64,000 nt of DNA from Phycisphaerales bacterium (lineage in GTDB: Bacteria; Planctomycetota; Phycisphaerae; Phycisphaerales; UBA1924): positions 407,003-471,002 of the forward strand of contig JAHDXL010000001.1 in NCBI GenBank assembly GCA_023382935.1. Reading direction: 5' to 3'. Within the stretch, counting starts at the first letter, position 1, and every line of letters begins with the position of its first letter. The position numbers and the translations under genes are program-made. The notes beneath the pieces are model-generated. The model saw nothing but the letters and a program-made list of their open reading frames with translations. It made no database searches and had not been told where the DNA came from. Of this stretch, positions 12,397-42,069 are shown in pieces.

Positions 12397-14585
12397 CGCC
12401 CGCTCCATTCCTCGCTCGCTCCCGCGCGCAGGCGCCGCCGCTGCCCGCCCACGTTCACCTCCAGCCCCGGCCCGTCCTCGTGCTCGACCCTCACACGCCC
12501 GCCCTCGATCTCCACCCGCACCCGAGAACCACGCCAGCATAGCGGAAAACGCATCGCCTTCCACCGCGCCGGAAGGCGCGGCCCGATCGTCAGCACCTCC
12601 GTCTCCAGCGCGCTCTTCACCCCCGCAAATCCGTACACCGCCATCTGCCACATCGCCCCGCACGCGGCGATGTGCACTCCCTCGGCCGCGCCCCCGTGCG
12701 ACACGTCCAGGTCCAGCCCCTGGCCTCGCAGCCAGAAGTCCCACGCCTCCTCCTGCCTGCCCAGCCGCAGCGCCACCAGCGCGTGCGCCCCCGGCGACAG
12801 CGACGAGTCATGCGTCGTATACGGAACGTACTCACGCCACGCCGCCGCCACCTCCGCATCCGAAAACTCGTGCGGCAACATCGCCATCAGCATCAGCACA
12901 TCCGCCTGCTTGAGACACTTCGAGCGATACAGCCGCTCCTGCGAAACCTGCGCCGCATAGGTCCGCCCCCGGTCCGGCCATGACCTCTCAAACTCCGGCT
13001 CACCCAGCAGCGGCCACTCCTCGCACTGCAACACCAGATCCCCCGCTCGCGGCAGCCAGAGCCCGCGTGCCACCGCCCCGAAACGCTCACGCTCACCCGC
13101 GTCATCTGCCAGCCGGGCCGCCAGCGCCAGCGCCCGCGCCACCATCCGGTTCGTGTACGAGTTGTTGCTCGAAATCGGCGTGTATTCGTCCGGGCCCATC
13201 ACGCCCAGCAGATGCACACGCCCGTCGCCGGCACGCCGGCTTACACGCCCAAGCCAGTAGCGGGCCGTCTCCAGCACCACCTCGCGGGCCTCTCCTTTCA
13301 AGAACGCCTCGTCTCCGGTCGCCCGCCCGTAGTGCTCGAACCCATGAACCACGTCGGCCGTCACATGCACCTCGTGATCCGCGTACTGCCAGTTCGGGCA
13401 GCACTCGATCCCCCGATGGTCGCTCTCCCACGCATAGCGCGCCCCGGCGTACCCATATCGCCTCGCGTTCGCCCGCGCCCCCTCCAGCGTGTGCACGCGA
13501 AAAGCGCACAACTGCCGCGCCAGGTCCGGCCGCGTGTGCATGTAAAACGGAAGCAGATAGGCCTCCGTATCCCAGAAGAACCTGCCCCAGTACGCCTCGC
13601 CCGCATACCCCTTGGCGTCAATCGCCACCGCCGACCTGCGCGGGTGCGCGCGGATCAGGTGATACAGCGCCGCCCGCATCGCCAGTTGCGAGCCTTCATC
13701 GCCTTCAATCTCCACATCGCAGCAGTCCCACTCCCGCTGCATTGCCTCACCCTGCTCACGCAGCAGTTCGTCAAACGCCGGCACGTCCCTCGGGCTCGGA
13801 GGCGGCGCTTCTCCCCGGCGCACGAACGTGATCTTCTCGGCACGCGCCTCCTTCGGCCCGGCCTCCACCACCGCCCGCCACGCCCCACGCCGCGCATCCA
13901 GTTCAACCTGCGTGCCCTCGCCATCGTGCCGCAGCGCGCACGCCGTGCGAACCAAATCCTCGCCGTCCGTCCGCACGTCACAGGTGATCCACGCCCCGCG
14001 CGCTCCGAACTGCACCGACTCGAAATGATCGTGCCCGTTCGTGCGCACCTGCGCGTCGATCCCCGCGACCAGTTCCACCCCGCACCGCTCGCTCGCCTTC
14101 ATCTTCACGCGCTGCGCGATCAGCCCTTCACGCACGCACGAAACAAACCGCTCAAAAACCAACTCCACCTGCCGCCCCCCAACACACCACTGCACCTCGC
14201 GCCTCAGCACGCCCGTCCGAAGGTCCAGCCGCCGCAGGTCGTGATCGGCAGAACCGGCTTCCGACCGCCCTCCCGGCTCCAACTCCACCCCATCCACCAC
14301 CACCCGAAACTCCAGCGGCCACGGCAGGTTCACCATCTCCGCGTTCAGCGTCGGATGAGGACCGAACACCCCGGGCACATAGCAGCCCCACTTGCTCACC
14401 CGCTCGCGAAACTTCTCCGACGTGACGTTCGCCGCTCGTCGCTCGTACGCCGCATCCTGCTCCTCGCCCGGCACGCCCTGCTCATACGAGCCGCGGACGT
14501 GCACCCACGACCATCCCTGCGTGAACAGCCCCTCAAACGCCTTGGCCGTCGCCGGGTCGAAACCGCTCTGTTCTAGTGTCCACAT
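12393..14585 (-). CDS. Glycoside hydrolase family 65 disaccharide phosphorylase
   Basis: A 730-residue GH65 enzyme (maltose, kojibiose, nigerose or trehalose phosphorylase). It would cleave an alpha-linked glucose disaccharide with inorganic phosphate, giving beta-glucose 1-phosphate and glucose. The N-terminal beta-sandwich covers about 1-260 and the (alpha/alpha)6 barrel the centre, with W-G-R-F-F-W-D-T-E-A-Y near residue 335 and the proton-donor Glu in G-P-D-E-Y-T-P near residue 470. The H-I-A-A-C-G-A-M-W-Q motif precedes the C-terminal sandwich. The next gene is a beta-phosphoglucomutase overlapping by four bases, the usual partner of inverting disaccharide phosphorylases. The exact linkage is not predictable. 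Confidence 0.92.
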   Translation of the reverse strand: MWTLEQSGFDPATAKAFEGLFTQGWSWVHVRGSYEQGVPGEEQDAAYERRAANVTSEKFRERVSKWGCYVPGVFGPHPTLNAEMVNLPWPLEFRVVVDGVELEPGGRSEAGSADHDLRRLDLRTGVLRREVQWCVGGRQVELVFERFVSCVREGLIAQRVKMKASERCGVELVAGIDAQVRTNGHDHFESVQFGARGAWITCDVRTDGEDLVRTACALRHDGEGTQVELDARRGAWRAVVEAGPKEARAEKITFVRRGEAPPPSPRDVPAFDELLREQGEAMQREWDCCDVEIEGDEGSQLAMRAALYHLIRAHPRRSAVAIDAKGYAGEAYWGRFFWDTEAYLLPFYMHTRPDLARQLCAFRVHTLEGARANARRYGYAGARYAWESDHRGIECCPNWQYADHEVHVTADVVHGFEHYGRATGDEAFLKGEAREVVLETARYWLGRVSRRAGDGRVHLLGVMGPDEYTPISSNNSYTNRMVARALALAARLADDAGERERFGAVARGLWLPRAGDLVLQCEEWPLLGEPEFERSWPDRGRTYAAQVSQERLYRSKCLKQADVLMLMAMLPHEFSDAEVAAAWREYVPYTTHDSSLSPGAHALVALRLGRQEEAWDFWLRGQGLDLDVSHGGAAEGVHIAACGAMWQMAVYGFAGVKSALETEVLTIGPRLPARWKAMRFPLCWRGSRVRVEIEGGRVRVEHEDGPGLEVNVGGQRRRLRAGASEEWSGR

Positions 14586-14703
14586 CGCCTACAGCGTAGC
14601 GATGCACCGGGCCATGCCCACAGGAAACACGCGCACAGGAAGGCGCAGTCAATCCGCGCAGCGGGGCGGCCTCCAGCCGCCCGTACCCGCAGCACCCATC
14701 CAC

Positions 14704-14994
14704 CTACGCCGCCCGCGAACTCTCCTCGCCCGCGTATGCATCGACCACGTCGAACATCTCGCTCACCCGCCTCACCGGCAACCCGTCCCACTTCGCGTGC
14801 TCGTGGATCAACTCCCTGCTCGGCGGCATGAACAGGCAGGACAGGCTCTCCCCGGTCACGTAACTCTCGATCAGTTTCACCTCCGGCACCAGTTCACGGC
14901 TGATCAGCCGCGAAGTCTCGCTCGCCCCAGCCAACTGCTCCCCTGAAAACCGGCCAACTCCGGGAATGTCACGCTCGGCCACGTACTTCGGAAT
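14704..14994 (-). CDS. DUF4242 small protein with an apparent ATT start codon
   Basis: A 96-residue protein of the DUF4242 (SCO4226-like) family, whose members start with M-P-K-[FY]-V-x-E-R-[DE]-[IL]-P-G. Here the same P-K-Y-V-A-E-R-D-I-P-G block is preceded exactly at the Met position by ATT, and AGGAG lies at 15002-15006, seven bases upstream. ATT is therefore the most likely start codon. Fallback is the GTG three codons into the block, or the reading frame's more distant starts up to 15150, which lack family similarity. The family is a small ferredoxin-like fold; one Streptomyces member binds nickel. The role here is unknown. Confidence 0.7.
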   Translation of the reverse strand: MPKYVAERDIPGVGRFSGEQLAGASETSRLISRELVPEVKLIESYVTGESLSCLFMPPSRELIHEHAKWDGLPVRRVSEMFDVVDAYAGEESSRAA

Positions 14995-15133
14995 CCGCGG
15001 ACTCCTGTTCGTCGTCCCCAACCACACTGCCGACACGCTGACAGCGTGCTCCCGATGCCGCGTGGGTCTTCCCCTGCCCAGAACTTCCAGATTCAGGCCA
15101 GCGCCGCTGATTCCGGGGGGCATGCAGCCCCGG

Positions 15134-16084
15134 TCAGCTGCGGTCAGCACTCAACCAACGCTCCATGAACGCCGCCGACGCATCCAGCACGCGATCGTCC
15201 TCCCGGTGCGGCGTGTGTCCGGCCCCCGGCACCATCAACAACTCGCCCACGCCTCCAACTCCCTCGGCGATCGCCCGCGCGTGCTGCTCCGTCGCGTACT
15301 CATCCCGCTCGCCCTGCACCACCAGCACCGGACACACCACCTCCCTCAAATCCCCCATTATCTCCCAGTCCCGAAACGCCGGTGAAAGCCAGGTCCGCGT
15401 CCACACACCGAAAACGTCCGCCGCCTTGTCCCCGTGATACCGCTCCACACGTCGGCGAAAACCCGCATCCTCCCACCACGGCAGCGCATCACGCAGCCCC
15501 GCCAGCGTGCGCTCCTCCACATAGACGTGCGCCCCCTCGGCGATCACCCCCGCACACCATGCCGGCCGCAACGCCGCCCCCAGCAACGCCACCGTCCCTC
15601 CATCACTGTGCCCGAACAGGAACACACACCCCCCGGGGGGCGCCGCATCCGCCCGCTCGTCAGATCCTCCCCCTCGGGGGCAGGTGTTTGGCGCAGCCGG
15701 ACGGAGGGGGTCTTCTTCCATCCGTCGATCTGTCACTTCGTCGCTCTTTCCCTCGATCGACTCCCCAAGGCCCCTGCACTGCTCCACCAACTCCACCAGC
15801 ACCCGCGCCTGCACATGCAGATACCTCCTGTCGCGCTCCAGGCGCCGCGCCGACGAATGTCCGTATCCCTCGCGGTCGTAGATCAATCCGTCGCACCGCG
15901 ACCGAGCGCACAATCGCAGCGGAAAGTCCCGCCATGTCTCGATCGATCCCAGCGAATCGTGCAGAAACACGATCGTCCCGCGCGCCCCGCCCTGCAGCCG
16001 CAGCCGCCGCACGCGGAGACGCGCCCCGTCTACCTCGACATCAAAGTCCTCACGCTCAAACGCGCACGCTGCCTGCCCATGCAT
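15134..16084 (-). CDS. Alpha/beta hydrolase with a coding repeat insert
   Basis: A 316-residue alpha/beta hydrolase. The oxyanion loop is V-F-L-H-D-S-L-G at residues 39-46, the nucleophile elbow G-H-S-D-G-G has Ser160, the acid is near V-Q-G-E-R-D-E and the His is in P-G-A-G-H-T-P-H-R-E. Between helix A and the nucleophile strand an extra ~45-residue loop (about 104-152) breaks the normal fold. Residues 122-152 are encoded by a dispersed repeat (15629-15719) also found near 28.8 and 29.4 kb. The repeat keeps the frame open, so the protein may still fold with a surface loop. The ATG at 16084 is preferred over in-frame starts up to 16240 that lie in the promoter of the divergent M20 gene. Confidence 0.85.
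   Translation of the reverse strand: MHGQAACAFEREDFDVEVDGARLRVRRLRLQGGARGTIVFLHDSLGSIETWRDFPLRLCARSRCDGLIYDREGYGHSSARRLERDRRYLHVQARVLVELVEQCRGLGESIEGKSDEVTDRRMEEDPLRPAAPNTCPRGGGSDERADAAPPGGCVFLFGHSDGGTVALLGAALRPAWCAGVIAEGAHVYVEERTLAGLRDALPWWEDAGFRRRVERYHGDKAADVFGVWTRTWLSPAFRDWEIMGDLREVVCPVLVVQGERDEYATEQHARAIAEGVGGVGELLMVPGAGHTPHREDDRVLDASAAFMERWLSADRS
15629..15719. repeat. Dispersed GC-rich repeat, copy A (inside a gene)
   Basis: Contains the core that begins GATCCTCC, has a C-rich/G-rich turn, then AGGTG, TGGCGCAG, CGGAGGGGG and TTCTTCC (15663-15719). The same ordered blocks occur at 28812-28862 and 29426-29479. A first half with CCCCCCGGGGGG precedes the core at 15629-15640. This copy lies in frame within the alpha/beta hydrolase gene. 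Confidence 0.65.
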
Positions 16085-16242
16085 GACTCGACTGTACGCG
16101 GCCGCTTGCCGCGGGCATCGCACGAACGACCACGCCCCGGAGATGCCTACCCGCGTGCGCCTGCCAATGATCCCCAAGCGTCGACTCGCAGAGCCGACAC
16201 GCCCAGCACCATCGGCCCGCCGCGCCGAACGAGGAGGCACTC

Positions 16243-17864: not shown

Positions 17865-20800
17865 ATGACTTCACAAAGGGGAGTACGCATGTCGCATCGT
17901 CGTTCCGTCGTCGCGCTCGTCACCGCTATCGCCGGGCTCGCCTGTTCCGCCGGCGCTCAGGTCCAGTGGCGTTCCTCGCCTGATGGTGTTCTGGACATCG
18001 AAATGCCCGCCGCGGTTCACCAGCAGATGGTCGCTCTGGCCTCCCGCCCGACCGACAAGCGCGTCGTCATCGAGTTCGGACGCGCCCTCTCTCAGGCCGA
18101 ACGCACCAGCCTGGCCGCGATCGGCGTGCGCACGCTGACCGCTCTCGGCGGCGGGGCCTACTTCGCCTCGCTCGACAGCGCCCAACTCGACGCAGCCCGC
18201 GTCCTTGCCACCGCGCAGGTCCGCCGCGTCCGCGCCATCGACTCGACATGGAAACTCCACGAAATGCTCGCCGTCGGCGAACGCACTCCCTGGGCCGAGG
18301 TCGGAGGTACCCCCGAAAACCCCGTCATCGGCGCCTACGTCCGCCTCCATGATGACGCCCCGCTCGATGCTTCCTCCGAGCAGATCGTCACCGCGCTCGG
18401 CGGCATCATCCGCGACGTGCTCGTCAGCGCCAACGGATACGTCATCGAGATCCCGCGCGACCGCATCCTCGCACTGGCCTCCAACGACGCCGTCCAGTGG
18501 ATCGAGCCCGCCCTCCCGCGCATGAGCGAGGTGGCCCTCCTCCGAAACAATGAAAACCGCGCCCTCACCGGTGCCGACACCGCACAGAGCGTCTACGGGC
18601 TTGACGGCACCGGCGTCAAGGCACTCATCTACGACGGCGGCACCGCCCTCTCCACCCACACCTTCTACGGCGGGCGACTGACCACCTTGGACAGTTCCGG
18701 CGTCATCGCGCACGCCACTCACGTCGCCGCAACCGTCGGCGGCTCCGGCGTCATCGGCACCGGAAACCACCGCGGAATGGCCCCCAACGCCACTCTCTTC
18801 TCCGCCGGCTTCCAGAGCGACGGCACCGGCACCTTCCTCTACACCAACCCCGGTGACATCGAGTCCGACTACGGAAACGCCATCAACAACCGCGGTGTCG
18901 TCCTCACCAACAACTCCATCGGCACCAACACCGAAACCAACGGCTTCCCCTGCTCCATCCAGGGCGACTACGGAATGACCGACGTCGTCATCGACTCCAT
19001 CGCGCGCGGATCCATCGGCAACGCCCCCATCATCGTCTGGGCCGCCGGAAACGAACGCCAAGGCACTCGCTGCAACGTCGAAGGCTTCGGTTCCTACTAC
19101 TCCTCCGCGCCCCCCGCCGGCGCCAAAAACCACCTCTGCATCGGCGCCGTCAACGCCAACGACGACTCCATGACCTCCTTCTCCTCCTGGGGCCCCACCG
19201 ACGACGGACGCATGAAGCCAGACTTCTCCGCACCCGGCTGCCAGAGCAACGGCGACGGCGGCGTCACCAGCGCCAGCAACTCGAGCACCACCGCCACCAC
19301 CACCATGTGCGGCACCTCCATGGCCTCCCCCACCGCCTGCGGCATCGTCGCACTCATGCTCCAGGACCATCGCACCCAGTTCCCCGGACGCCTTGATCCT
19401 CTCTCCTCCACCGTCAAGGCCATCCTCGCTCACACCGCCGTCGACCGTGGCATCATCGGGCCAGACTACCAGTTCGGCTACGGCTCCATCCGCGCCGTCG
19501 CCGCCATCGACCAGATGCGCCTCGATGCTCACTCCGAGGTCGCCGTCGAGCAGGGCGAAATTCGCAACTTCATCTTCGACGTCGCTCCCGGTCAGACCTC
19601 CATCAAGGTCACCGCCGCTTGGGCCGACGTCCCAGCAGCCGCAAACGCCACCAACGCACTCATCAACGACATCGACATCCGCCTCATCTCCCCCAGCGGC
19701 GTCACCTTCTACCCCTGGACACTCAATCCCGCCTCGCCTTCTTCCGCGGCCGTGCGCACCGCCGCCAACCACCGCGACAACATCGAACAGGTGCTCGTCG
19801 ACAACCCGCAGTCCGGACAGTGGCGATGCGAAGTCGTCGGCTTCTCCGTCCCCAGCGGACCGCAGACCGTCTCCATCGTCGGCCCCGCCGGCATGGTCGA
19901 ACGCGGTGTCCGCGTCCAGGTCGCCACCGTTCCTTCCCTCGTCGACCCAGGCACCGTCCTCACCGCCAACGTCAACGTCATCGTCGTCGAAGACACCCTC
20001 GTCCCCAACTCCGTCCAACTCCACGCCCGAAACGACGGCGGCGCCTTCAACACCACCCAGTTGACCTTCCTCGGCGGCAACTCCTACTCGGCTCAACTCC
20101 CCGCCGTCCTCTGCGCCGACCCCATGGAGTTCTACGTCACCGCTCAGGGCGTCCTATCCGGCCTGGTCTCTTCCCCCACCGCTGGGCCCAACGCCCCCTA
20201 CGCCGTCGAAGCCGGCATCTACACCACCGGCTTTGCCGACAACTTCCAGACTGACACCGGCTGGACCGTCACCAATGACGCCAACCTCACCGACGGACCG
20301 TGGACCCGCGGCGTCCCCGTCGGCGGCGGCACCCGCGGCGACCCCGCCACCGACTTCGACGGCTCCGGCGCCTGCTACCTCACCGACAACGTCGCCGGGA
20401 ACTCCGACGTCGACGGCGGGACCACCACCCTCACCAGCCCCACCTTCGACGGCTCGCAGGGAGACTCCTACATCAACTACGCCCGCTGGTTCCACAACGC
20501 CGCGGGCGATAACCCCGGCACCGAGACCTTCGTCATCGAAGTCTCCAACAACGACGGCGCCTCTTGGGTCAATCTCGAGACCATCGGGCCAGCCGGCACC
20601 GGCACCACCGGCGGCTGGTTCTACGTCTCTCACCGCATCGCCGACGTCATCACCCCCACCAACACCATGCGCGTCCGCTACAAGGCCTCCGACCTCGGCC
20701 TTCAGGGCGTCATCGAGGCCGCCGTCGATGCGTTCTCCATCACCACCTTCTCCTGCGTCGACCCCGAGCCTGACTGCCCCGCCGACTTCAACAACGACAA

Positions 20801-20942
20801 CACCCTCGACTTCTTCGATGTCCAGGCTTTCCTCGCCGCCTTCTCCGCACAGCAGCCCGCCGCCGACTTCAATCACGACAGTGCCTTCAACTTCTTCGAC
20901 GTGCAGGCCTTCCTCCAGGCCTTTGCCAACGGCTGCCCCTGA
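17865..20942 (+). CDS. Secreted subtilisin-like protease with GC-type dockerin tail
   Basis: A 1025-residue exported S8 peptidase. A signal peptide ends near residue 31 (S-A-G-A-Q). The catalytic triad can be read as Asp in A-L-I-Y-D-G-G (~256), His in H-A-T-H-V-A-A (~284) and Ser in C-G-T-S-M-A-S-P (~484). After the protease domain come a galactose-binding-like beta-sandwich (~555-670) and further beta-rich modules. The last ~60 residues carry two dockerin-like loops (D-F-N-N-D-N-T-L-D-F-F-D-V-Q and D-F-N-H-D-S-A-F-N-F-F-D-V-Q) and end in N-G-C-P. Start at 17865 follows GAGGAGGGG; ATG 17889 with GGGGAG is nearly as good. A strong terminator follows at 20988. Confidence 0.92.
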   Translation: MTSQRGVRMSHRRSVVALVTAIAGLACSAGAQVQWRSSPDGVLDIEMPAAVHQQMVALASRPTDKRVVIEFGRALSQAERTSLAAIGVRTLTALGGGAYFASLDSAQLDAARVLATAQVRRVRAIDSTWKLHEMLAVGERTPWAEVGGTPENPVIGAYVRLHDDAPLDASSEQIVTALGGIIRDVLVSANGYVIEIPRDRILALASNDAVQWIEPALPRMSEVALLRNNENRALTGADTAQSVYGLDGTGVKALIYDGGTALSTHTFYGGRLTTLDSSGVIAHATHVAATVGGSGVIGTGNHRGMAPNATLFSAGFQSDGTGTFLYTNPGDIESDYGNAINNRGVVLTNNSIGTNTETNGFPCSIQGDYGMTDVVIDSIARGSIGNAPIIVWAAGNERQGTRCNVEGFGSYYSSAPPAGAKNHLCIGAVNANDDSMTSFSSWGPTDDGRMKPDFSAPGCQSNGDGGVTSASNSSTTATTTMCGTSMASPTACGIVALMLQDHRTQFPGRLDPLSSTVKAILAHTAVDRGIIGPDYQFGYGSIRAVAAIDQMRLDAHSEVAVEQGEIRNFIFDVAPGQTSIKVTAAWADVPAAANATNALINDIDIRLISPSGVTFYPWTLNPASPSSAAVRTAANHRDNIEQVLVDNPQSGQWRCEVVGFSVPSGPQTVSIVGPAGMVERGVRVQVATVPSLVDPGTVLTANVNVIVVEDTLVPNSVQLHARNDGGAFNTTQLTFLGGNSYSAQLPAVLCADPMEFYVTAQGVLSGLVSSPTAGPNAPYAVEAGIYTTGFADNFQTDTGWTVTNDANLTDGPWTRGVPVGGGTRGDPATDFDGSGACYLTDNVAGNSDVDGGTTTLTSPTFDGSQGDSYINYARWFHNAAGDNPGTETFVIEVSNNDGASWVNLETIGPAGTGTTGGWFYVSHRIADVITPTNTMRVRYKASDLGLQGVIEAAVDAFSITTFSCVDPEPDCPADFNNDNTLDFFDVQAFLAAFSAQQPAADFNHDSAFNFFDVQAFLQAFANGCP

Positions 20943-20987
20943 TCGGTAGGACCAGTTTTCAACCGGTCAGAGACTGAAACGCCAGCC

Positions 20988-21024
20988 ACAGGGTGGACCT
21001 GCGTCCACCCTGTTTCGTTTTTCT
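20988..21024 (+). terminator. Rho-independent terminator of the subtilase gene
   Basis: An 11-bp perfect stem (ACAGGGTGGAC, 20988-20998; GTCCACCCTGT, 21003-21013) with a 4-nt loop, followed by TTCGTTTTTCTC. It is 46 bases after the stop codon and argues that the downstream Fe-S gene begins beyond it. Confidence 0.88.
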
Positions 21025-21064
21025 CTCCCCGCGCCCAACTCCCTCTTGCGTCCCTTCCTCGTTT

Positions 21065-21080
21065 TGGATACTTTTATCCA
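21065..21080. promoter_or_regulatory. TGGATA-N4-TATCCA palindrome before the Fe-S/TPR gene
   Basis: A perfect 6-4-6 inverted repeat, 36 bases before the proposed GTG start at 21116. The geometry resembles sites of Crp/Fnr-type dimeric regulators, but the half-site is not the standard one. A weak promoter (TTGCGT at 21046, 17-bp spacing) would place the -10 region inside it. Regulator unknown. Confidence 0.4.
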
Positions 21081-21115
21081 TAATCATTGCCCCGCAGGTT
21101 CCCGGAGCGCCCCGC

Positions 21116-23122
21116 GTGCCTCACGCCGATCGCCATGCCCGCACGCCCCACCGGCCGGCGCGAGCACGCGCCACTCCAAGCCCCTCGCCGATCTCCCTGT
21201 CGGTGCTTCCCAACCACCCGCCGGACGACCTCGAACTTCGCCTGCATCGCATCCGTCGCTGGCGACTCCGAGCACTGGTCTTCGTCCACCTGCTCATCCT
21301 CGCGCACCTCGCCCACTGGCTCATCCGCGGCACCACCATCGGGCGGTTCGTCTTGTCCGACTCCATGGACACACTCGAACTCGGTCGCGTAAACCCCGGG
21401 TTCATTCTCTTTGCGCTCGCCGCCATCACCACGGCCATCTGCGGCCGATGGCTCTGCGGATGGGCATGCCACATGGGCGCCCTCCAAGACGCCTGCGCCT
21501 ACCTCCTGCGCCGGGTTGGCATGCGCCCCCGCGTCCTCCGGTTCCGTCTTCTCGGCTACGTGCCCATCGCCCTCGCTCTCTACATGTTCGTCTGGCCCAC
21601 ATTCCGCCGCGATCTGCTCTCACCCGTGATTGCCAGGATCGCACCCCACGCCCGCCTTGCCTCGACTCCACCCTTCCCCGGCTTCCACTCTGCCTTGACC
21701 AGTGATGACCTCTGGCGCGGCATGCCCAGCCTGCCGGTCGCCATTGCCTTCCTGCTCGTCTGCGGCGGTGCCACCGTCTACTTCCTCGGCAGCCGCGGCT
21801 TCTGCCGCTACGGGTGCCCCTACGGCGGGCTGTTCACCCCGCTCGAACGCCTCGCCCCCTTCCGCATCACCCTCAACCCCGATGCTTGCGACGGATGCGG
21901 CAAATGCACCGCCGCATGCAGTTCCGGCGTCCGCGTACACGAAGAGGTCCGCGCCTTCGGCCGCGTCGTCTCTCCCCACTGCGCCAAGACCCTCGACTGC
22001 AAGGCCGCCTGTCCCCACGACGCCCTCACCCTCGCTTTCACTCGCCCCTCGCTCTCACAGTCGCTCTCCCGAACATCGCCGCCATCCCGCCCGCTCTTCG
22101 ATGCTTCACTCAAAGGTGAAATGACGCTGCTGGCCATCTTCGCCGCCTCCTTCTTCGTCTCACGCGGGTTGTACGCCGCCATTCCCATGCTCATGGCCGT
22201 CGGCATCAGCATCTCCGGGTGCGGCATCGCGTGGTTCGCGTGGCACACCCTCCGCCACTCCAACACGCGCCTCGGCCCGCTCCAACTCAAGCGCGCCGGC
22301 GCCCTCACGACGCCTGGTCGCATCTTCCTCACGCTGACGCTGCTTGCGGCACTCTTGCTCGCCCACTCCGCATTGGTGCGCGGACTGCATTGGCGGGCCT
22401 CCCGCCTCGACGCGACCGTGTCGGCGTCCGCGGAAGCAGCCTTCTCCCCCGCTCCCGTACCCCTCTCTCATGATGAACGCGCCGCGGCTAAAAAAGCACT
22501 CTCTCTCTACAGACTTGGTTCTTCATTCCGTCACGGAGGGCTCGCCCTCCTCGACACTCATCCAATCCTCGTCCGCACCGCATGGCTGAAACTCGTTCTT
22601 GGTGACGCCACCGGCGCCGAGGCCGTGCTCCGCCGCGCGCTGGCCATCCAGGAAACCGATCCGCTCAGCATCGACCTGGCGCGACTCCTCCTCCGACAGA
22701 ACCGGCCCGATGATGCTCAGAATCACCTCCGCCACATCCTCCACCGCCACGACGACTTTGAACAATCTCGAGCGATGCTCGCCACCCTGCTCGTTTGGCA
22801 AGACCGCCCCGACGATGCCCTCACGCTCTATCAGGATCACCTCGTGGCCCACCCCGACGACGCGGCATCACGCGCCGCTTTCGGCTCACTCCTCCTTTCC
22901 CTTGGACACATCGAACCGGGTCGTGCTCAACTGCGCCAAGCCATCGCGCACAACCCCCGCCTGCCACGCCCTCGCCTCGATCTGGCCGCTTCCTACGCCC
23001 TCGTCGGTGACGTCCGCTCGGCCCTGGAGGTGCTTGAACAGGCCGCGCTCGACCTGCCCGCCGACGCCCCCAACTTCCACGCACACGCCGCCCAACTTCG
23101 GGCCGCGCTCCGTCAGGACTGA
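21116..23122 (+). CDS. Membrane 4Fe-4S protein with C-terminal TPR domain
   Basis: A 668-residue integral membrane protein of the NapH/NosR/CcoG-like class fused to tetratricopeptide repeats. Four membrane helices surround a C-G-R-W-L-C-G-W-A-C-H motif (~residue 107) and an F-C-R-Y-G-C-P-Y-G motif. A ferredoxin domain follows (~258-310) with C-D-G-C-G-K-C-T-A-A-C and C-A-K-T-L-D-C-K-A-A-C-P, enough for two 4Fe-4S clusters. Two to three more helices (~340-435) lead to a TPR region (~450-660). It would move electrons across or along the membrane. I chose GTG 21116 because GGAG sits eight bases upstream and the in-frame start at 20993 lies within the upstream terminator; GTG at 21206 is an alternative. 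The next gene is a multiheme cytochrome. Confidence 0.83.
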   Translation: MPHADRHARTPHRPARARATPSPSPISLSVLPNHPPDDLELRLHRIRRWRLRALVFVHLLILAHLAHWLIRGTTIGRFVLSDSMDTLELGRVNPGFILFALAAITTAICGRWLCGWACHMGALQDACAYLLRRVGMRPRVLRFRLLGYVPIALALYMFVWPTFRRDLLSPVIARIAPHARLASTPPFPGFHSALTSDDLWRGMPSLPVAIAFLLVCGGATVYFLGSRGFCRYGCPYGGLFTPLERLAPFRITLNPDACDGCGKCTAACSSGVRVHEEVRAFGRVVSPHCAKTLDCKAACPHDALTLAFTRPSLSQSLSRTSPPSRPLFDASLKGEMTLLAIFAASFFVSRGLYAAIPMLMAVGISISGCGIAWFAWHTLRHSNTRLGPLQLKRAGALTTPGRIFLTLTLLAALLLAHSALVRGLHWRASRLDATVSASAEAAFSPAPVPLSHDERAAAKKALSLYRLGSSFRHGGLALLDTHPILVRTAWLKLVLGDATGAEAVLRRALAIQETDPLSIDLARLLLRQNRPDDAQNHLRHILHRHDDFEQSRAMLATLLVWQDRPDDALTLYQDHLVAHPDDAASRAAFGSLLLSLGHIEPGRAQLRQAIAHNPRLPRPRLDLAASYALVGDVRSALEVLEQAALDLPADAPNFHAHAAQLRAALRQD

Positions 23123-23181
23123 TAACCACCAGCCCCGGCTCGGTCGGACGCCCTGATCCGTCCCCCACGCCCTCTTCGCCC

Positions 23182-23210
23182 TTGCACCCCTGCTTCACTC
23201 CTGTTATACT
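23182..23210 (+). promoter_or_regulatory. Sigma-70-type promoter of the cytochrome c gene
   Basis: TTGCAC (23182-23187), a 17-bp spacer and TATACT (23205-23210). The start point would be near 23217, giving a leader of about 43 nt to the ATG at 23260. The cytochrome can thus be expressed apart from the upstream Fe-S gene. Confidence 0.6.
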
Positions 23211-23259
23211 CATCTATTCTGGATAAAAAGGTACAGAACAACGGAATCAGGAGATGCAC

Positions 23260-25095
23260 ATGACTGGGCACGCCAAGACGTTCGCCTCCAGGAAGGGTCT
23301 CGCTCTCGGCGGGCTCATCGCTGCTCTGGCCGCCGTTGCCGGGGCCGTCTACTTCGACATGACGCTGGCGGACTTCCACGTCCCCGGCACGCAATACGGC
23401 GACCTCGAAGTCGGCGCCATCGAACACTCCGAATCCTGCACACTCTGCCACGGCAACGTCGACGTGGGCAACGACCCCACCTCCACCTGGGCCGGAAGCA
23501 AAATGGCACACGCCGGACGCAATCCGCTCTTCTTCGCTCAGATGACCCTGGCCAACCAGGACGTCGCCAATGTCGGCTACTACTGCATGCGCTGCCACAT
23601 CCCCTACTCCATCGTCTCCGGCTCGGCACTCATCCCCGACGGCAGCGCCCTCACCCACGACGACCGCGACGGCGTCACTTGTCACCTCTGTCACGCCATG
23701 GTGGATCCGATCTACAAGCCCGGCGTTAGCCCCGTCGAAGACCTGCCCATTCTCGCCGCGCTCGATGACGTCCCCACCTTCTACGGCAACGCCATGTTCG
23801 TCCTCGATCCCACCGGCACACGCCGCGGCACCATCCGCCCCGACACCTACGCACTCCACGACGTCATCCCCTCGCCCTTCCATTCCTCCGGCTCCATGTG
23901 CGGCACCTGCCATGACGTCGGCAACCTCGCAGTCACCGCCCAGCCCAACGGCACCTTCCGCTACAACGCCCTCGACGAGCCCTCCCCCACTCAGGATCCC
24001 TGGCAGATGTTCCCCCTCGAACGCACCTACACCGAGTGGGCCCTGAGTTCCTTTGCCAATGGCGGCGTCGACATGGGTGGACGCTTCGGCGGCGTGGGTG
24101 CCTCCACTGTGTCCACCTGCCAGGACTGCCACATGCCCCGCGCACAGGGCCGAATGTGCTTCTTCGCACCCCAACGCCCTGATGCCCGTCGCCACGAATT
24201 CGCCGGCAGCGGCGCCCAGACGCTCGACATCATCGCCGCCTACGCGGCCGAAGACCCCGACGTCGATCTGGATGCCATCGCACGCGCCCGCGCTGCCGCG
24301 GTCGACATGCTTCAACGCGCCGCCTCCCTCGATGTCCAGCAGGCCGGATCGCGCGTTCGCGTTCGCGTCACCAACCAATCCGGACACAAGATCCCCACCG
24401 GCCACATCGAAGGCCGCCGCATCTGGGTCAACCTCCGCTTCCTCGACCACGCCGGACAGGTCATCGACGAGGTCGGGCACTACGACCTCGCCGAAGCCGA
24501 TCTGCACCTCGAGGGCACCACCGTCTTCGAAATGCACGTCGGCCTGAGCGACGACGCCGCCGCGGCCACCGGCCTGCCCGCCGGGCTCACCCAGCACATG
24601 GCCCTGGCCGACACCATCGTCAAGGACACACGCATCCCGCCTCGTGGCTGGAACAACGCCGCCTTCGCCGCCGCCGGCGCTCCCGCCGTCGGTGCCGAAT
24701 ACCCCGACGGCCAGTTCTGGCACGACAGTTGGTACGTCATCCCTGCCGGCGCCGCCACCGTCGAAGCCCGCCTCTTCTACCAGAGCACTCCAAAGGAATA
24801 CATCGAGCATCTCCGCGACGCCAACGTCACCGACCACTGGGGACAGACGCTTCACGATCTCTGGGTTCAGACCGGCCGCGGCACGCCGATCGAAATGGCC
24901 TCGCTGACCTCCAGCATCACCTGCGTCGCTGACCTGGCGCAACCCACGGGCACGCTCGACTTCTTCGACGTGGCCGCCTTCCTCACCGCCTTCTCAGCCC
25001 ACCAGTCCCCCGCCGATCTGGCACTGCCTTACGGCGTGTGGGACTTCTTCGATGTCCAAGCCTTCCTCGCCGCCTTCTCCGCCGGATGCCCCTGA
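23260..25095 (+). CDS. Five-heme cytochrome c with GC-type dockerin tail
   Basis: A 611-residue exported cytochrome with five C-x-x-C-H heme sites: C-T-L-C-H, C-M-R-C-H, C-H-L-C-H, C-G-T-C-H and C-Q-D-C-H, all in the first ~290 residues. A single membrane-spanning or signal segment is at about 12-30. The middle region (~340-540) is beta-rich without hemes. The C-terminal ~60 residues repeat the dockerin pattern (D-F-F-D-V-A-A-F-L-T-A-F, W-D-F-F-D-V-Q-A-F-L) and end in S-A-G-C-P. ATG 23260 is preferred because AGGAG ends right at the alternative ATG 23254. It follows the membrane Fe-S protein and probably accepts electrons from it on the outer face; the terminal acceptor is unknown. Confidence 0.87.
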   Translation: MTGHAKTFASRKGLALGGLIAALAAVAGAVYFDMTLADFHVPGTQYGDLEVGAIEHSESCTLCHGNVDVGNDPTSTWAGSKMAHAGRNPLFFAQMTLANQDVANVGYYCMRCHIPYSIVSGSALIPDGSALTHDDRDGVTCHLCHAMVDPIYKPGVSPVEDLPILAALDDVPTFYGNAMFVLDPTGTRRGTIRPDTYALHDVIPSPFHSSGSMCGTCHDVGNLAVTAQPNGTFRYNALDEPSPTQDPWQMFPLERTYTEWALSSFANGGVDMGGRFGGVGASTVSTCQDCHMPRAQGRMCFFAPQRPDARRHEFAGSGAQTLDIIAAYAAEDPDVDLDAIARARAAAVDMLQRAASLDVQQAGSRVRVRVTNQSGHKIPTGHIEGRRIWVNLRFLDHAGQVIDEVGHYDLAEADLHLEGTTVFEMHVGLSDDAAAATGLPAGLTQHMALADTIVKDTRIPPRGWNNAAFAAAGAPAVGAEYPDGQFWHDSWYVIPAGAATVEARLFYQSTPKEYIEHLRDANVTDHWGQTLHDLWVQTGRGTPIEMASLTSSITCVADLAQPTGTLDFFDVAAFLTAFSAHQSPADLALPYGVWDFFDVQAFLAAFSAGCP

Positions 25096-25176
25096 TGCGG
25101 AGAGGTCGGGCCCCCTGCACACATCGACCGCCTCTGCGGCCTCGGTGGACCTCCGCGCCCCCCCTACCATCCCTCG

Positions 25177-25965
25177 ATGACCCTCGAGGCCACGTCGCTG
25201 TCGTTTGCCTACCGCAAGCCCGTGCTGCGCGATCTTTCCCTTCGCTTCGCCCCCGGTCGCATCGCCCTGGTCCTCGGCCCCAACGGCTCTGGCAAGTCTA
25301 CTCTCCTCCGGCTCCTGCTCGGGCTCCTCAACCCCCCCGAGCCTGCGGCCTGCACCCTCGCCGGATCGCCCGTCCACGCTCTCGCGCCCTCGCGCCGCGC
25401 CGAGCATCTGGCCTACGTACCCCACCACCCCCACGTCGGCTACGCGTACACCGTGCGCCAATACGTCTCCTTCTCTCTGGCCGCCCGCGCCCCCTCCGCT
25501 GACTCGGTCGAAACCGCACTCGATCAACTCGAACTGCGTGGCTTGGCCGACGTCCCGATCGCTGAACTCTCCGCCGGCCAGACGCAACGCGCCTCGATTG
25601 CCCGCGCTCTGGCGCAGATCACCACCTCGTCGGCTTCCCCGCGATTCCTGCTGGCCGACGAACCCACCAGCGCCCTCGACCCGCGCCACGTCGCGCACGT
25701 GTTGTCGCTCTTTCGCTCGCTGTCGCGCGGCGGCGTGGGCGTCATCCTCACCATGCACGATCTGGCCACCGCCGCCTCCATCGCCGACGACGTGTACGTG
25801 CTCAACTCCGAGGGCCAACTGGCCGCGCAGGGTCCGCCTGATCTCGTGCTTGTGCCGTCGGTGCTCGAAAACGTGTTCAGCACCGGGTTCGACCTCGTCG
25901 AGTCCCACGGCCGCCGCGTCATCTTCCGCCGCGATTTTCACTCCGACGCCGCCGCGATGAGGTAA
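25177..25965 (+). CDS. ABC transporter ATP-binding protein (FecE/BtuD type)
   Basis: A 262-residue ABC ATPase of the iron-complex/cobalamin importer family. Walker A is G-P-N-G-S-G-K-S-T (about 33-41), the signature L-S-A-G-Q-T-Q-R, Walker B F-L-L-A-D-E-P-T-S-A-L-D and the switch His in T-M-H-D-L-A-T. It would power uptake of a chelated metal or corrinoid. No permease or binding protein gene lies next to it, so it must pair with subunits encoded elsewhere or serve another role. The following gene starts ten bases after its stop. Confidence 0.88.
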   Translation: MTLEATSLSFAYRKPVLRDLSLRFAPGRIALVLGPNGSGKSTLLRLLLGLLNPPEPAACTLAGSPVHALAPSRRAEHLAYVPHHPHVGYAYTVRQYVSFSLAARAPSADSVETALDQLELRGLADVPIAELSAGQTQRASIARALAQITTSSASPRFLLADEPTSALDPRHVAHVLSLFRSLSRGGVGVILTMHDLATAASIADDVYVLNSEGQLAAQGPPDLVLVPSVLENVFSTGFDLVESHGRRVIFRRDFHSDAAAMR

Positions 25966-38965: not shown

Positions 38966-40354
38966 ATGAGACGGACCGTTCTTGGCCGGGGCCGTGCCGT
39001 GGTCATCGTGCTTTCCGCGGCTCTGCTGGCCGGCTGTGCCGGCAGGCCCATCGCAAGCCAGCGCCAGGCGAGGGCTGACCTGGAGAGTGTCCGATCGGTG
39101 TACCGGCCCGGCGACGCGAAGCCAACCCTTCCCCCGCTCACGACCGAGTCGCCGCTGGCCGAGTACCTGCGGTACGCCATCCTCAACAATCCGCGTGTCG
39201 AGGCGTCGTACTACGCGTGGGCGGGCTCGGTCGAGCGCATCACCCCGGCACGGTCGTTGCCTGATCCGCGGCTGACCTTCGAGGCCGACATCACCGACAT
39301 GCTGGAGGCGGTGATGCCCGGTCTGATGCTCGACCTGCCCGGACCCGGCAAGTTGCGCGCCGCCGCAGACGTGGCCGCGGCCGAGGCGCAGGTGGGGTAC
39401 TTCGGATTCCAGCGCCAGGTGCTGGCAACCGCGTATGCCACCAAGTCCGCGTACATCCGGCTGCACTTTCTGAGCGACACCATCCGAGTTCAGCGCGACG
39501 CGCTGGCGCTGCTTGAAGATGTTGAGTTGCAGGCCCAGCAGCAGGTCGGCGCCGGCCGGGGCACGATCCAGGATGTGCTGCGTGCTCAGATCGAGCGTGA
39601 TCAACTCGCCAACCAGATCGCCAACCTGGAGGATTCGCGCAGCGTTCTGGAGGCTGAGTTTCGGGCCGCCCTCGGTCACTCGCCGGCCGACACGTCCGTG
39701 CCCATCCCCGGCACGTTCGAGGGCGGCACGCCGCCCCCATCTGCGGACGCGGTGCTGGTGATGGCCGCGGAGCGCAACCCCGTGCTTCGGCAGATGGAGG
39801 CCGACGTGCGGCGGGGCGAGGCGATGCTTGGCCTGGCGCGGACGAGCCGGGTGCCCGACTTGACGATCGGCATCGAGGCGGACGTGAAGGCCAGCCCGAT
39901 CATGTGGCGACCCATCGCAAGCATGACCCTTCCGATCTGGCGCGACAAGATCGAGGCCGAGATCGCCGCGGCACAGGCGGACAAGCGGTCGGCCGAGGCC
40001 CGGCTGTCGGCCGAGCAGATCGCGATTGCGGCCGAGTTGGCCTCGATGCTCTACATGTACCGGGAGAGCGGACGGAACGCGACGTTGTTCGGATCGACGC
40101 TTCTTCCCAAAGCGCAGCAGTCGCTGGAGGCCGCGCGCTCGGGCTACGCGAGCGGGCGATCCACGTTCCTCGATGTGATCGATGCGCAGCGTCGATTGCT
40201 CGAGTTCGAACTCGCCGCCATTGAAGCGAAGGCCCAGCGCGAACTGGCCATCGCGTCGATTTCTCTTGTGATTGCCGGCGCGACACCGGACGGAGCGCCG
40301 GTGCTGCCCGTGAACGCCTCGAAGTCTTCGGAGCCCAAGGAGGCCCGTCCATGA
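38966..40354 (+). CDS. Outer-membrane efflux lipoprotein (TolC/CusC type)
   Basis: A 462-residue outer-membrane factor that forms the exit duct of a tripartite metal efflux pump. The lipobox L-L-A-G-C at residues 17-21 fits the lipoprotein nature of CusC/CzcC. The helical TolC repeats are seen as L-R-Y-A-I-L-N-N-P-R-V-E-A and, in the second half, V-L-V-M-A-A-E-R-N-P-V-L-R, each followed by the long coiled-coil hairpin. ATG 38966 is preferred because it opens the lipoprotein signal; the frame extends up to 38813. Its stop overlaps the start of the adaptor gene by four bases. CusC rather than CzcC is inferred from the neighbours. Confidence 0.88.
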   Translation: MRRTVLGRGRAVVIVLSAALLAGCAGRPIASQRQARADLESVRSVYRPGDAKPTLPPLTTESPLAEYLRYAILNNPRVEASYYAWAGSVERITPARSLPDPRLTFEADITDMLEAVMPGLMLDLPGPGKLRAAADVAAAEAQVGYFGFQRQVLATAYATKSAYIRLHFLSDTIRVQRDALALLEDVELQAQQQVGAGRGTIQDVLRAQIERDQLANQIANLEDSRSVLEAEFRAALGHSPADTSVPIPGTFEGGTPPPSADAVLVMAAERNPVLRQMEADVRRGEAMLGLARTSRVPDLTIGIEADVKASPIMWRPIASMTLPIWRDKIEAEIAAAQADKRSAEARLSAEQIAIAAELASMLYMYRESGRNATLFGSTLLPKAQQSLEAARSGYASGRSTFLDVIDAQRRLLEFELAAIEAKAQRELAIASISLVIAGATPDGAPVLPVNASKSSEPKEARP

Positions 40355-42054
40355 AGCGAAGCACCGCCATTGTGTCGATCGTTGCCGTGATCGTGCTTGC
40401 CGCCGCCGGAGGGTATTGGCTGGGGCGAGGAAGCGGCGCACGGCCCACATCCGGCGTGGCGGCGTCCGGCCAGGCCGTTCCCGCGCCCGCCAAGCAGGTC
40501 TACACCTGCTCGATGCACCCGCAGGTCCGGCTGGATCGCCCGGGCGACTGCCCGATCTGCGAGATGCCGCTCATTCCGGCGGCCTCGGCGGCGGCGAACG
40601 CGGCCGGCGAGGTTCCCACGCTTCAACTCTCCGAACACGCGCTTGCGATGGCGAGCGTGGAGACGGTGGCTGTCGAGCATCGCCCGCTGTCGCGTGAACT
40701 CCAGGCCGTCGGACGCATCGAGTACAACGAGTCCTCGCTGGCCACGATCACGGCGCGGGTGGACGGGTACGCCGAGAGGCTGTTCGTGAACTTCACCGGC
40801 GTGGAGATTCGCAAGGGCGACCACCTGGCGGAGGTCTATAGCCCCGAACTGCTGGTGGCGCAACAGGAACTTCTCATTTCCTTGCAAGCCGGCGGGGCGG
40901 GGGAGGCACTGGCGAACGTTGCCAAGACCCGGCTCCGTCTGCTCGGGCTCACCGATGCGCAGATCGCCAGCCTGGTCGACCAGAAGCAGACGACCGACCG
41001 CGTCACGCTCTATTCGCCGATCAGCGGCACAGTCATTGAAAAGGCGATCGTGCAGAATGCGTCCTTCAGGGCCGGGGACATGCTCTACCGGATCGCCAAC
41101 CTTGATTCGGTCTGGGTGTACCTGGAGGTGTACGAGTTCGACCTTCCGTGGATCCGGTACGGCCAGAAGGTGCGGCTGTCAGCGGAGGCCATTCCCGGTC
41201 GCACGTTCGAAGGGTTGGTCACGTTCGTGCAACCGATCGTGAACGAACCGTCCCGGACGATTCGCATCCCGGTCCACATCGACAACCACGACCACGCGCT
41301 CAAGCCGGGGATGTTCGTGACGGCGTCGATCTCGGCGACGCTGACCTCCGAGGGACGGGCCGCGCCGACGGGCGTCGAGGGCAAGTTCACCTGCCCGATG
41401 CACCCTCAGGTGCTCACGGAAGCAGACGGGGCCTGCCCGATCTGCGAGATGCCCCTGGAACAGATCCCGGGCGAGCCGACGGGCAGCCCCGCACATCACG
41501 CCGAACACGCCGCGCACAGTGACGAGCACGGCGATACATCTGTGGCAACGCCGTCGCCGGCGGCCAGGTACCTCTGTCCGATGAAGTGCGAGGGCGAGAA
41601 GACATACGACGAACCGGGACGCTGCCCGGTGTGCAGGATGAAACTCAAGGAGGTCGAAGCGGCTCCCGCGGAGGCGGCACGCACCGGTGGCGGCGTGCTG
41701 TCGGTGCCCGTGGTGGCCGTGCTGGATGCTGGTACCCGCCAGATCGTGTACGTGGAGAAGGCTCGCGGCCTGTTCGAGCCGCGAGAACTCACGCTCGGGC
41801 CGAGGGCGGGCGCGTACTTCCCCGTGCTGTCGGGCCTGTCGGCGGGGGAGCGCGTGGTGACCCGCGGCAACTTCCTGATCGACAGCCAGTTCCAGGTCAC
41901 CGGGCACCCGAGCCTCTTCTACCCCGGCGGGCTGCACGCAACGATGGGCCATGACCACGGAGGAACCGCAAAGCAAGCCGGCACGCCGGCGCAGCCCGGT
42001 GCTGACGCGATGCCATCAACAACGCCCGCGCCAACCGGCGGCCACAAGCACTGA
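40351..42054 (+). CDS. cusB: RND periplasmic adaptor (CusB type) with three metal-binding domains
   Basis: A 567-residue membrane-fusion protein linking the inner-membrane pump and outer-membrane duct. A signal/anchor segment lies at ~5-24. Three heavy-metal-binding (HMBD) motifs are seen: Y-T-C-S-M-H-P-Q-V...C-P-I-C-E-M-P-L at ~50, F-T-C-P-M-H-P-Q-V...C-P-I-C-E-M-P-L at ~346, and Y-L-C-P-M-K-C...C-P-V-C-R-M-K-L at ~406. The adaptor core with the biotinyl-lipoyl half-motifs (I-S-G-T-V-I-E-K) and beta-barrel lies between ~80 and 330 and after ~450. Most CusB proteins carry one such motif or none, so three, two of them splitting the core, is notable. A His-rich tail ends the protein. Silver/copper specificity is inferred. 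Confidence 0.9.
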   Translation: MKRSTAIVSIVAVIVLAAAGGYWLGRGSGARPTSGVAASGQAVPAPAKQVYTCSMHPQVRLDRPGDCPICEMPLIPAASAAANAAGEVPTLQLSEHALAMASVETVAVEHRPLSRELQAVGRIEYNESSLATITARVDGYAERLFVNFTGVEIRKGDHLAEVYSPELLVAQQELLISLQAGGAGEALANVAKTRLRLLGLTDAQIASLVDQKQTTDRVTLYSPISGTVIEKAIVQNASFRAGDMLYRIANLDSVWVYLEVYEFDLPWIRYGQKVRLSAEAIPGRTFEGLVTFVQPIVNEPSRTIRIPVHIDNHDHALKPGMFVTASISATLTSEGRAAPTGVEGKFTCPMHPQVLTEADGACPICEMPLEQIPGEPTGSPAHHAEHAAHSDEHGDTSVATPSPAARYLCPMKCEGEKTYDEPGRCPVCRMKLKEVEAAPAEAARTGGGVLSVPVVAVLDAGTRQIVYVEKARGLFEPRELTLGPRAGAYFPVLSGLSAGERVVTRGNFLIDSQFQVTGHPSLFYPGGLHATMGHDHGGTAKQAGTPAQPGADAMPSTTPAPTGGHKH

Positions 42055-42069
42055 GCGGAGGAACCACCC

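Follow-up and report, generated by a model that had tools for sequence, protein, structure and literature searches.

What does a membrane ferredoxin do beside a multiheme cytochrome that ends in a sorting tail? The question is raised by two neighbouring genes in a 64,000-nucleotide stretch of the Phycisphaerales bacterium assembly GCA_023382935.1 (contig JAHDXL010000001.1, positions 407,003 to 471,002 of the forward strand), which as a whole is called the window here. Gene 1 encodes a NapH/NosR-like membrane protein, and gene 2 encodes a pentaheme c-type cytochrome with a GC-type dockerin tail. We propose, at a likelihood that we place somewhat short of even, that a quinol-fed electron branch, co-regulated with the nitrous-oxide reduction (nos) genes, ends on this cytochrome, which would be tethered by its tail. 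The elements of the locus on which this proposal draws are as follows.

21065 to 21080: 6-4-6 palindrome TGGATACTTTTATCCA (TGGATA-CTTT-TATCCA), proposed operator
21116 to 23122, plus strand: gene 1, NapH/NosR-like membrane ferredoxin with a tetratricopeptide repeat (TPR) domain, proposed GTG start
21887 to 22015, plus strand: two-cluster ferredoxin motifs of gene 1, residues 299-341 of P0001
22601 to 23101, plus strand: TPR region of gene 1, from residue 537 (Pfam)
23220 to 23235, plus strand: operator-like site TGGATAAAAAGGTACA before gene 2, three mismatches to the palindrome
23254 to 25095, plus strand: gene 2, pentaheme c-type cytochrome with an N-terminal hydrophobic helix, heme region, beta domain, and dockerin tail
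23437 to 24132, plus strand: five CxxCH heme motifs of gene 2, residues 62-293
24922 to 25092, plus strand: GC-type dockerin tail of gene 2, residues 557-613 (profile match at 557-612)

The longest open reading frame (ORF) of gene 1 starts at 20993 and ends at 23122. The GTG at 21116, 35 bases past the palindrome, is proposed as its start because the conserved start region lies at VPHA in the alignment with the congener G002 (L101). The original prediction of a NosR/NapH-like membrane ferredoxin with a TPR tail was borne out by the Fer4_5 and Fer4_10 motifs, six hydrophobic segments (by a simple count), and the TPR region. Gene 1 failed the profiles for the proteins it was likened to, scoring 46.1 bits with TIGR02163 (cut-off 213) and 37.6 bits with NF007013 (cut-off 234) for NapH, and 12.6 bits with NF046105 (cut-off 1000) for NosR. 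NosR has a flavin mononucleotide (FMN)-binding domain; no such domain was found among the 25 best of the 27 Pfam matches of gene 1.

All Pfam matches of gene 2 stayed under their cut-offs, and the ExtKL equivalog NF040886 failed at 15.1 bits (cut-off 250). A structure model built from 56 sequences reached a mean predicted local distance difference test (pLDDT) score of 91.3, and Foldseek retrieved with it a single solved structure at E <0.001, namely the pentaheme c552 of Thermochromatium tepidum (5ZE8, E 1.7e-12). The superposition in VIA-align had a Z of 23.4 over 336 residues (2.8 A, 23% identity), the next row had a Z of 9.6, and the following rows shown matched mainly the C-terminal beta domain. 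By its five CxxCH motifs and c552 fold, gene 2 belongs to the pentaheme c552/PHC fold group. Passages of PMC11976967 place sPHC and lPHC of cable bacteria, ExtKL, and Gsu2801 in one family, treat sPHC as homologous to c552, and cite a relatedness to archaeal cytochrome nanowires; extracellular electron transfer or selenite reduction has been proposed for ExtKL and its relatives in cable bacteria and Geobacter (passages of PMC11976967 and PMC5877670). In the alignment of the cytochrome family, the non-motif histidines 202, 314, and 378 were invariant (56 of 56) and H448 was His in 53, while residue 84 was Met in 53, His in two, and Lys in one (n=56). The profile alignment sets M84 of gene 2 opposite a His of c552, so that Met may replace His at one of the hemes.

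To follow the two genes across genomes, the own genome (G000) and 60 relatives, 61 in all, were searched for the cytochrome family and gene 1. The close cytochrome clade, defined by 55% identity or more, was found in nine genomes (G000, G002, G004, G005, G009, G028, G032, G046, and G047). A gene 1 relative adjoins the cytochrome in six of the nine and does so in three arrangements, with gene 1 first (G000, G002, and G004), with the cytochrome first (G028 and G046), or divergently (G047). A further adjacent case is L183, where the gene 1 relative lies in two frames. Ferredoxins of the paired type occurred in 8/9 close-clade genomes versus 3/52 others (Fisher p 4.8e-7, an optimistic value since the genomes are related and relatedness was not corrected), with the fragmentary gene 1 matches of G029 and G058 counted as lacking the paired type. 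Additionally, this type was found in the named genomes G062, G063, G064, and G070. The pair in G046 is followed by genes for a five-heme Cytochrome_C554 with four hydrophobic segments (L107:12143-14458) and an UnbV/ASPIC FG-GAP protein (14442-16232).

The ferredoxins that adjoin the cytochrome are also distinct within their own family. A tree of the gene 1 family (43 rows, window included, the column of residue 333 left out) separated a common subfamily from a clade of eight (support of 97 in the Shimodaira-Hasegawa-like approximate likelihood ratio test, SH-aLRT) and a divergent clade of three (100). In all 11 members of these two clades, the second cluster motif is missing its second cysteine and has Thr, Ser, or Asp at position 333, and all six ferredoxins adjoining the cytochrome fall within them. 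In gene 1 itself the motif reads C330-x5-C336-x3-C340-P, and its residue 333 is Thr, in contrast to the Cys of the common subfamily. Cys333 has also been lost outside the paired subfamilies, since three common-subfamily ferredoxins (the second copies of G000 and G002, and G050) have Thr333. For G062-G070 the residue type was read from the motif and not from the tree. The ferredoxins of G047, G063, and G070 have the motif CxxDxxC, which we take to be the pattern of ferredoxins holding [3Fe-4S] clusters. Separately, common-subfamily ferredoxins of six genomes, at L114, L144, L145, L148, L153, and L156, adjoin a secreted, tail-bearing family of about 550 amino acids with no clear Pfam domain beyond tail-type matches, and tail-bearing glucose/sorbosone dehydrogenases adjoin gene 1 relatives at L110, L113, and L115 (by Pfam) and at L151 (by clustering only).

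A palindrome had been predicted ahead of gene 1, and it is present; position 21065 marks the palindrome, not the gene start. It is the only site with zero or one mismatch in the own genome. It is kept before gene 1 in G002 (one mismatch) and before the cytochrome in G046 (no mismatch). In G032 the two genes are unlinked and each has a one-mismatch site near its start; both sites fall within the longest ORFs, and the conserved coding region follows them at distances of 176 and 163 bases. The site before gene 2, TGGATAAAAAGGTACA, resembles TGGATAACCAGATACA, a site ahead of the own nos operon; about 47 bases before the first gene of that operon lies a two-mismatch site, and the Rrf2 gene (PF02082) just upstream is only a candidate for the regulator. 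The palindrome at no more than two mismatches was then counted in upstream regions, the window excluded, with the expectation taken from Markov sequences. It preceded 4/14 paired-type ferredoxins (0.03 expected), 2/19 close cytochromes (0.03 expected), and 6/29 nos operons (0.23 expected), and it was found before none of the 36 common ferredoxins (0.05 expected) and none of the 65 other cytochromes (0.20 expected). For the nos operons, the scan covered the region 700-1500 bases upstream of the nosZ match, which is where the cytochrome gene at the head of the operon has its start. L155 (too short), L262, L264, L267, L270, and L271 are outside these counts; L300 and L301 are included in those for ferredoxins and nos operons. 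A separate count gave 5/17 target genes versus 11/543 other ORFs (p 4.9e-5); the controls are not all independent, because nos genes are among them and L111 overlaps L179.

An FNR or NsrR box was rejected as an identity for the palindrome, since the published spacing, TTGATnnnnATCAA and gATGyAT-N5-ATrCATc in passages of PMC1274295, differs from the TGGATA-N4-TATCCA found here. The relaxed pattern TRGATRNNNNYATCYA was discarded as a finder of a genome-wide regulon, because many of its exact matches seem to lie inside reading frames. Beside the nos cluster of G011, two further genes have a two-mismatch operator upstream, encoding a diheme cytochrome c with an ethylbenzene-dehydrogenase-type domain (L111:10517-12292) and a beta-eliminating lyase (L111:5856-7289).

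Over the part that was read, the own nos cluster comprises rrf2 and the genes for a cytochrome c with three CxxCH motifs, NosZ of the Sec-dependent type (TIGR04246), a 236-amino-acid protein, NosD, an ATP-binding cassette (ABC) ATPase, and an ABC permease. Elsewhere, gene 1 stands two genes from nosZ in G028, where cytochrome, ferredoxin, diheme cytochrome c, and NosZ follow one another, and it lies about 9 kb from nosZ in G011. The clade of eight ferredoxins was accompanied by NosZ in 8/8 genomes versus 19/53 others (p 7.5e-4), and the T/S333 ferredoxins of G062 and G064 have NosZ as well. The D333 type occurred with NosZ in only one of five genomes (G033, as opposed to G047, G059, G063, and G070). 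Seen from the cytochrome, NosZ was found in 7/14 named genomes with a close member (two of them repeat G004 and G005) and in 4/16 with other members. Stop codons inside NosZ were considered and dismissed, since eight of the nine loci checked have no stop within the match and the ninth has one only where the match overruns the gene end. The 236-amino-acid protein between nosZ and nosD (L177:9765-10475) has four hydrophobic segments and matches no Pfam or NCBIfam family at E 0.001.

The tail of gene 2 passes the GC-type dockerin profile NF041540 with 39.3 bits (cut-off 29). The usual dockerin calcium-binding loop follows D-x-[ND]-x-[DN]. Both loops of the gene 2 tail read DLAxPxG, so that it scores as an NF041540 dockerin but has the usual calcium ligands replaced in both repeats, and the type I dockerin family PF00404 was not among the three Pfam families that matched P0002 at E <=0.1. 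The genome contains 112 matches to this tail family, eight of them under the cut-off and three of them in full-length cytochromes of the gene 2 family. Dockerin-tailed multiheme cytochromes had been called unusual. The best 80 of 441 cytochrome relatives were kept, corresponding to 79 loci, on which the counts of relatives rest and of which 55 were taken as a subset; a profile built from the tails seen here found a dockerin-like tail in 47 of the 79, which contradicts the supposed rarity, and the tails of L206, L211, and L221 are also dockerin-like by eye.

In addition, other relatives end in other sorting tails. Five relatives picked by eye as resembling type IX secretion system (T9SS) substrates pass the cut-off of the T9SS type A sorting domain, namely L235 from Bacteroidota, L225, L230, L234, and L252 (L225, L234, and L252 being longer, with six CxxCH motifs). 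The C-terminus [ND]GF[ED] is shared by four members, L187, L188, and L189 of Lysobacterales and L192 of other Pseudomonadota, and the cytochromes of L190, L193, L194, and G047 have no tail at their end. The tails of 91 cytochromes were then compared with those of proteins encoded at the same locus (the duplicates L181, L186, and L195 were left out, as were rows that contain X or have an open end). Of the 91, 22 had a similar C-terminus (score at least 100) on a protein of their own locus, and for 12 of them this tail resembled theirs more than the tail of any other cytochrome did. For the other ten it did not; in some of them, as for the window (L119), the best rival was a cytochrome of the same genome or genus. 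From the host-matched tails and the T9SS tails, we conclude that the same enzyme body is fitted with whichever sorting tag its host uses. Since five relatives pass the T9SS test, surface sorting looks like a trait of the cytochrome family.

In the branch that we propose, gene 1 would probably oxidise quinol and move the electrons via its iron-sulfur centres. Its TPR domain, which probably lies on the outer side of the membrane, would provide the docking site for a partner beyond the cytoplasm. Gene 2, whose fold is of the c552/ExtKL class, would take the electrons from gene 1 and either pass them on or reduce a small substrate at an open heme. The cytochrome would be exported and held at the envelope surface by its C-terminal tail, a putative lineage-specific sorting module that takes the form of dockerin dialects in Planctomycetota and of T9SS tails in some other phyla. 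Gene 1, gene 2, and the nos operon would form a small regulon under an operator of the TGGATA-N4-TATCCA type. Of this picture, the data show the domains, the fold class, the exchanged tails, the co-occurrence, the lost cysteine of the paired subfamilies, and the common operator, whereas the oxidation of quinol, the direction in which electrons flow, the contact of the two proteins, the position at the surface, the substrate, and the regulator are inferred. The electron route to a surface-sorted cytochrome in the original prediction is retained in part: the gene linkage speaks for the route, and the five T9SS tails and the 12 of 22 host-like tails speak indirectly for surface sorting.

Several results weigh against this branch. 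A full-length gene 1 relative is absent from all seven non-Planctomycetota genomes with a close cytochrome (six gave no match, and G074 gave 24.5 bits); therefore, the close cytochrome can evidently work without gene 1. Of 14 further genomes with a close cytochrome (13 Planctomycetota plus G063), two lack the paired ferredoxin (G009, which is 87% complete, and G065), and the ferredoxin occurs without a close cytochrome in G011, G033, and G059. Co-occurrence, suggested at the outset as the check, shows a pairing of gene 1 and gene 2 that is real but limited. No site at two or fewer mismatches precedes 10/14 paired-type ferredoxins, 17/19 close cytochromes, and 23/29 nos operons. NosZ is not tied to either gene, with a near full-length match in 27/61 genomes, and it was found in none of the four Pseudomonadota genomes with the cytochrome. 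The structure prediction of gene 1 from three sequences (mean pLDDT 56) was of high confidence in the TPR region, but the membrane part failed, with pLDDT mostly <50, so that the topology rests on hydropathy. Lastly, the genome has one Pfam cohesin match (C8:57736-58017; L178, G000:C8).

These results make room for other explanations. The cytochrome could be a stand-alone surface oxidoreductase or electron conduit, with the adjacency of gene 1 as a secondary convenience of some Phycisphaerales. The seven genomes without a full-length gene 1 and the many family members with other sorting tails agree with this, but adjacency retained in three arrangements, strong co-occurrence in the 61 genomes, and operator sites that precede each gene even where the two lie apart do not, and we consider it possible though rather doubtful. 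Alternatively, gene 1 may be the missing donor of the clade II nitrous-oxide reductase, an analogue of NosR/NosGH, with the cytochrome as an auxiliary of the same pathway. Within the part of the own nos cluster that was read, neither NosR nor NosGH could be recognised (the rest of the genome was not searched for them), and the company of NosZ with the clade of eight and the T/S333 types, the proximity to nosZ in G028 and G011, and the common operator all point the same way. However, 19 genomes with NosZ have no clade-of-8 ferredoxin, the D333 type accompanies NosZ in one of five genomes, and the FMN-binding domain of NosR was not seen among the 25 best Pfam matches of gene 1, which leaves this donor role unlikely. 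A combined version, in which a TPR-bearing NapH-like protein with a modified and cysteine-poor cluster replaces NosR/NosGH in Phycisphaerales and feeds both clade II NosZ and the surface-tethered pentaheme cytochrome as one operator-defined regulon, appears distinctly improbable. It is very improbable that gene 1 serves the maturation or export of tail-bearing redox proteins and not electron transfer to the cytochrome: its relatives do adjoin other tail-bearing proteins (the glucose/sorbosone dehydrogenases and the family of about 550 amino acids), but those neighbours go with the Cys333 subfamily, and many of the relatives lack them.

Directly upstream of the pair lie two further features.

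17865 to 20942: S8 subtilase with a GC-type dockerin tail (39.9 bits)
20988 to 21013, plus strand: terminator-like hairpin between the subtilase gene and gene 1

The hairpin may separate the transcripts of the subtilase and gene 1, and it is weak by itself (one found versus a mean of 1.6 in shuffles). As predicted, the five-heme cytochrome and the protease have the same tail by NF041540; the special meaning read into this was rejected, given the 112 matches in the genome and the weak hairpin between the two genes. A good promoter claimed for the second gene was not recovered, as the scan of 20900-25300 found no sigma-70-type promoter. Elsewhere in the window, 40351-45756 encodes a 567-amino-acid protein followed by a 1228-amino-acid protein with 12 hydrophobic segments, perhaps a resistance-nodulation-division (RND) efflux pair by size and order. 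On C8, 2 kb past the cohesin match and with the same open-frame length (1084 amino acids), a type I dockerin match at C8:59746 could belong to a possible adaptor for tail-bearing proteins.

If the proposed branch is right, it would provide a partial answer to how clade II nitrous-oxide reducers of Planctomycetota handle quinol electrons, and a widely spread, apparently surface-sorted pentaheme cytochrome family would join the known electron-transfer proteins. If instead the NosR/NosGH-replacement version were true, N-oxide respiration and extracellular electron transfer would hang on a single quinol outlet. The exchange of sorting tails (dockerin dialect or T9SS) on one enzyme body offers a natural experiment on tail function, and the palindrome offers a handle for a direct expression test.

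A literature search returned no paper under the term GC-type dockerin, and no description of the present pair was seen among the papers listed on Planctomycetes dockerins and multiheme cytochromes, NapH-tetratricopeptide proteins, and nos/NsrR. In passages on the Planctosome model of freshwater Planctomycetes (PMC6461901), non-cellulosomal dockerins are borne by secreted proteins, as in gene 2, but these are peptidases; in passages on anaerobic methanotrophic (ANME) archaea (PMC9012536), the likewise non-cellulosomal dockerins are borne by ABC-transporter substrate-binding or S-layer proteins. The passages of both sources contain no dockerin-tailed cytochrome fed by a membrane ferredoxin. Gene 1 resembles NapH, NosR, and MauN in its two CX3C motifs and in the two-cluster ferredoxin segment that lies among its hydrophobic helices. 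Unlike them, it has a C-terminal TPR domain, no FMN domain was seen in it, and its scores are far under the NapH cut-offs; in its paired subfamilies, moreover, one cluster cysteine is absent. Gene 2 and the c552 of T. tepidum are alike in their five c hemes and overall fold, whereas gene 2 differs by its low identity, a conserved Met84 facing a His of c552, and an added dockerin tail.

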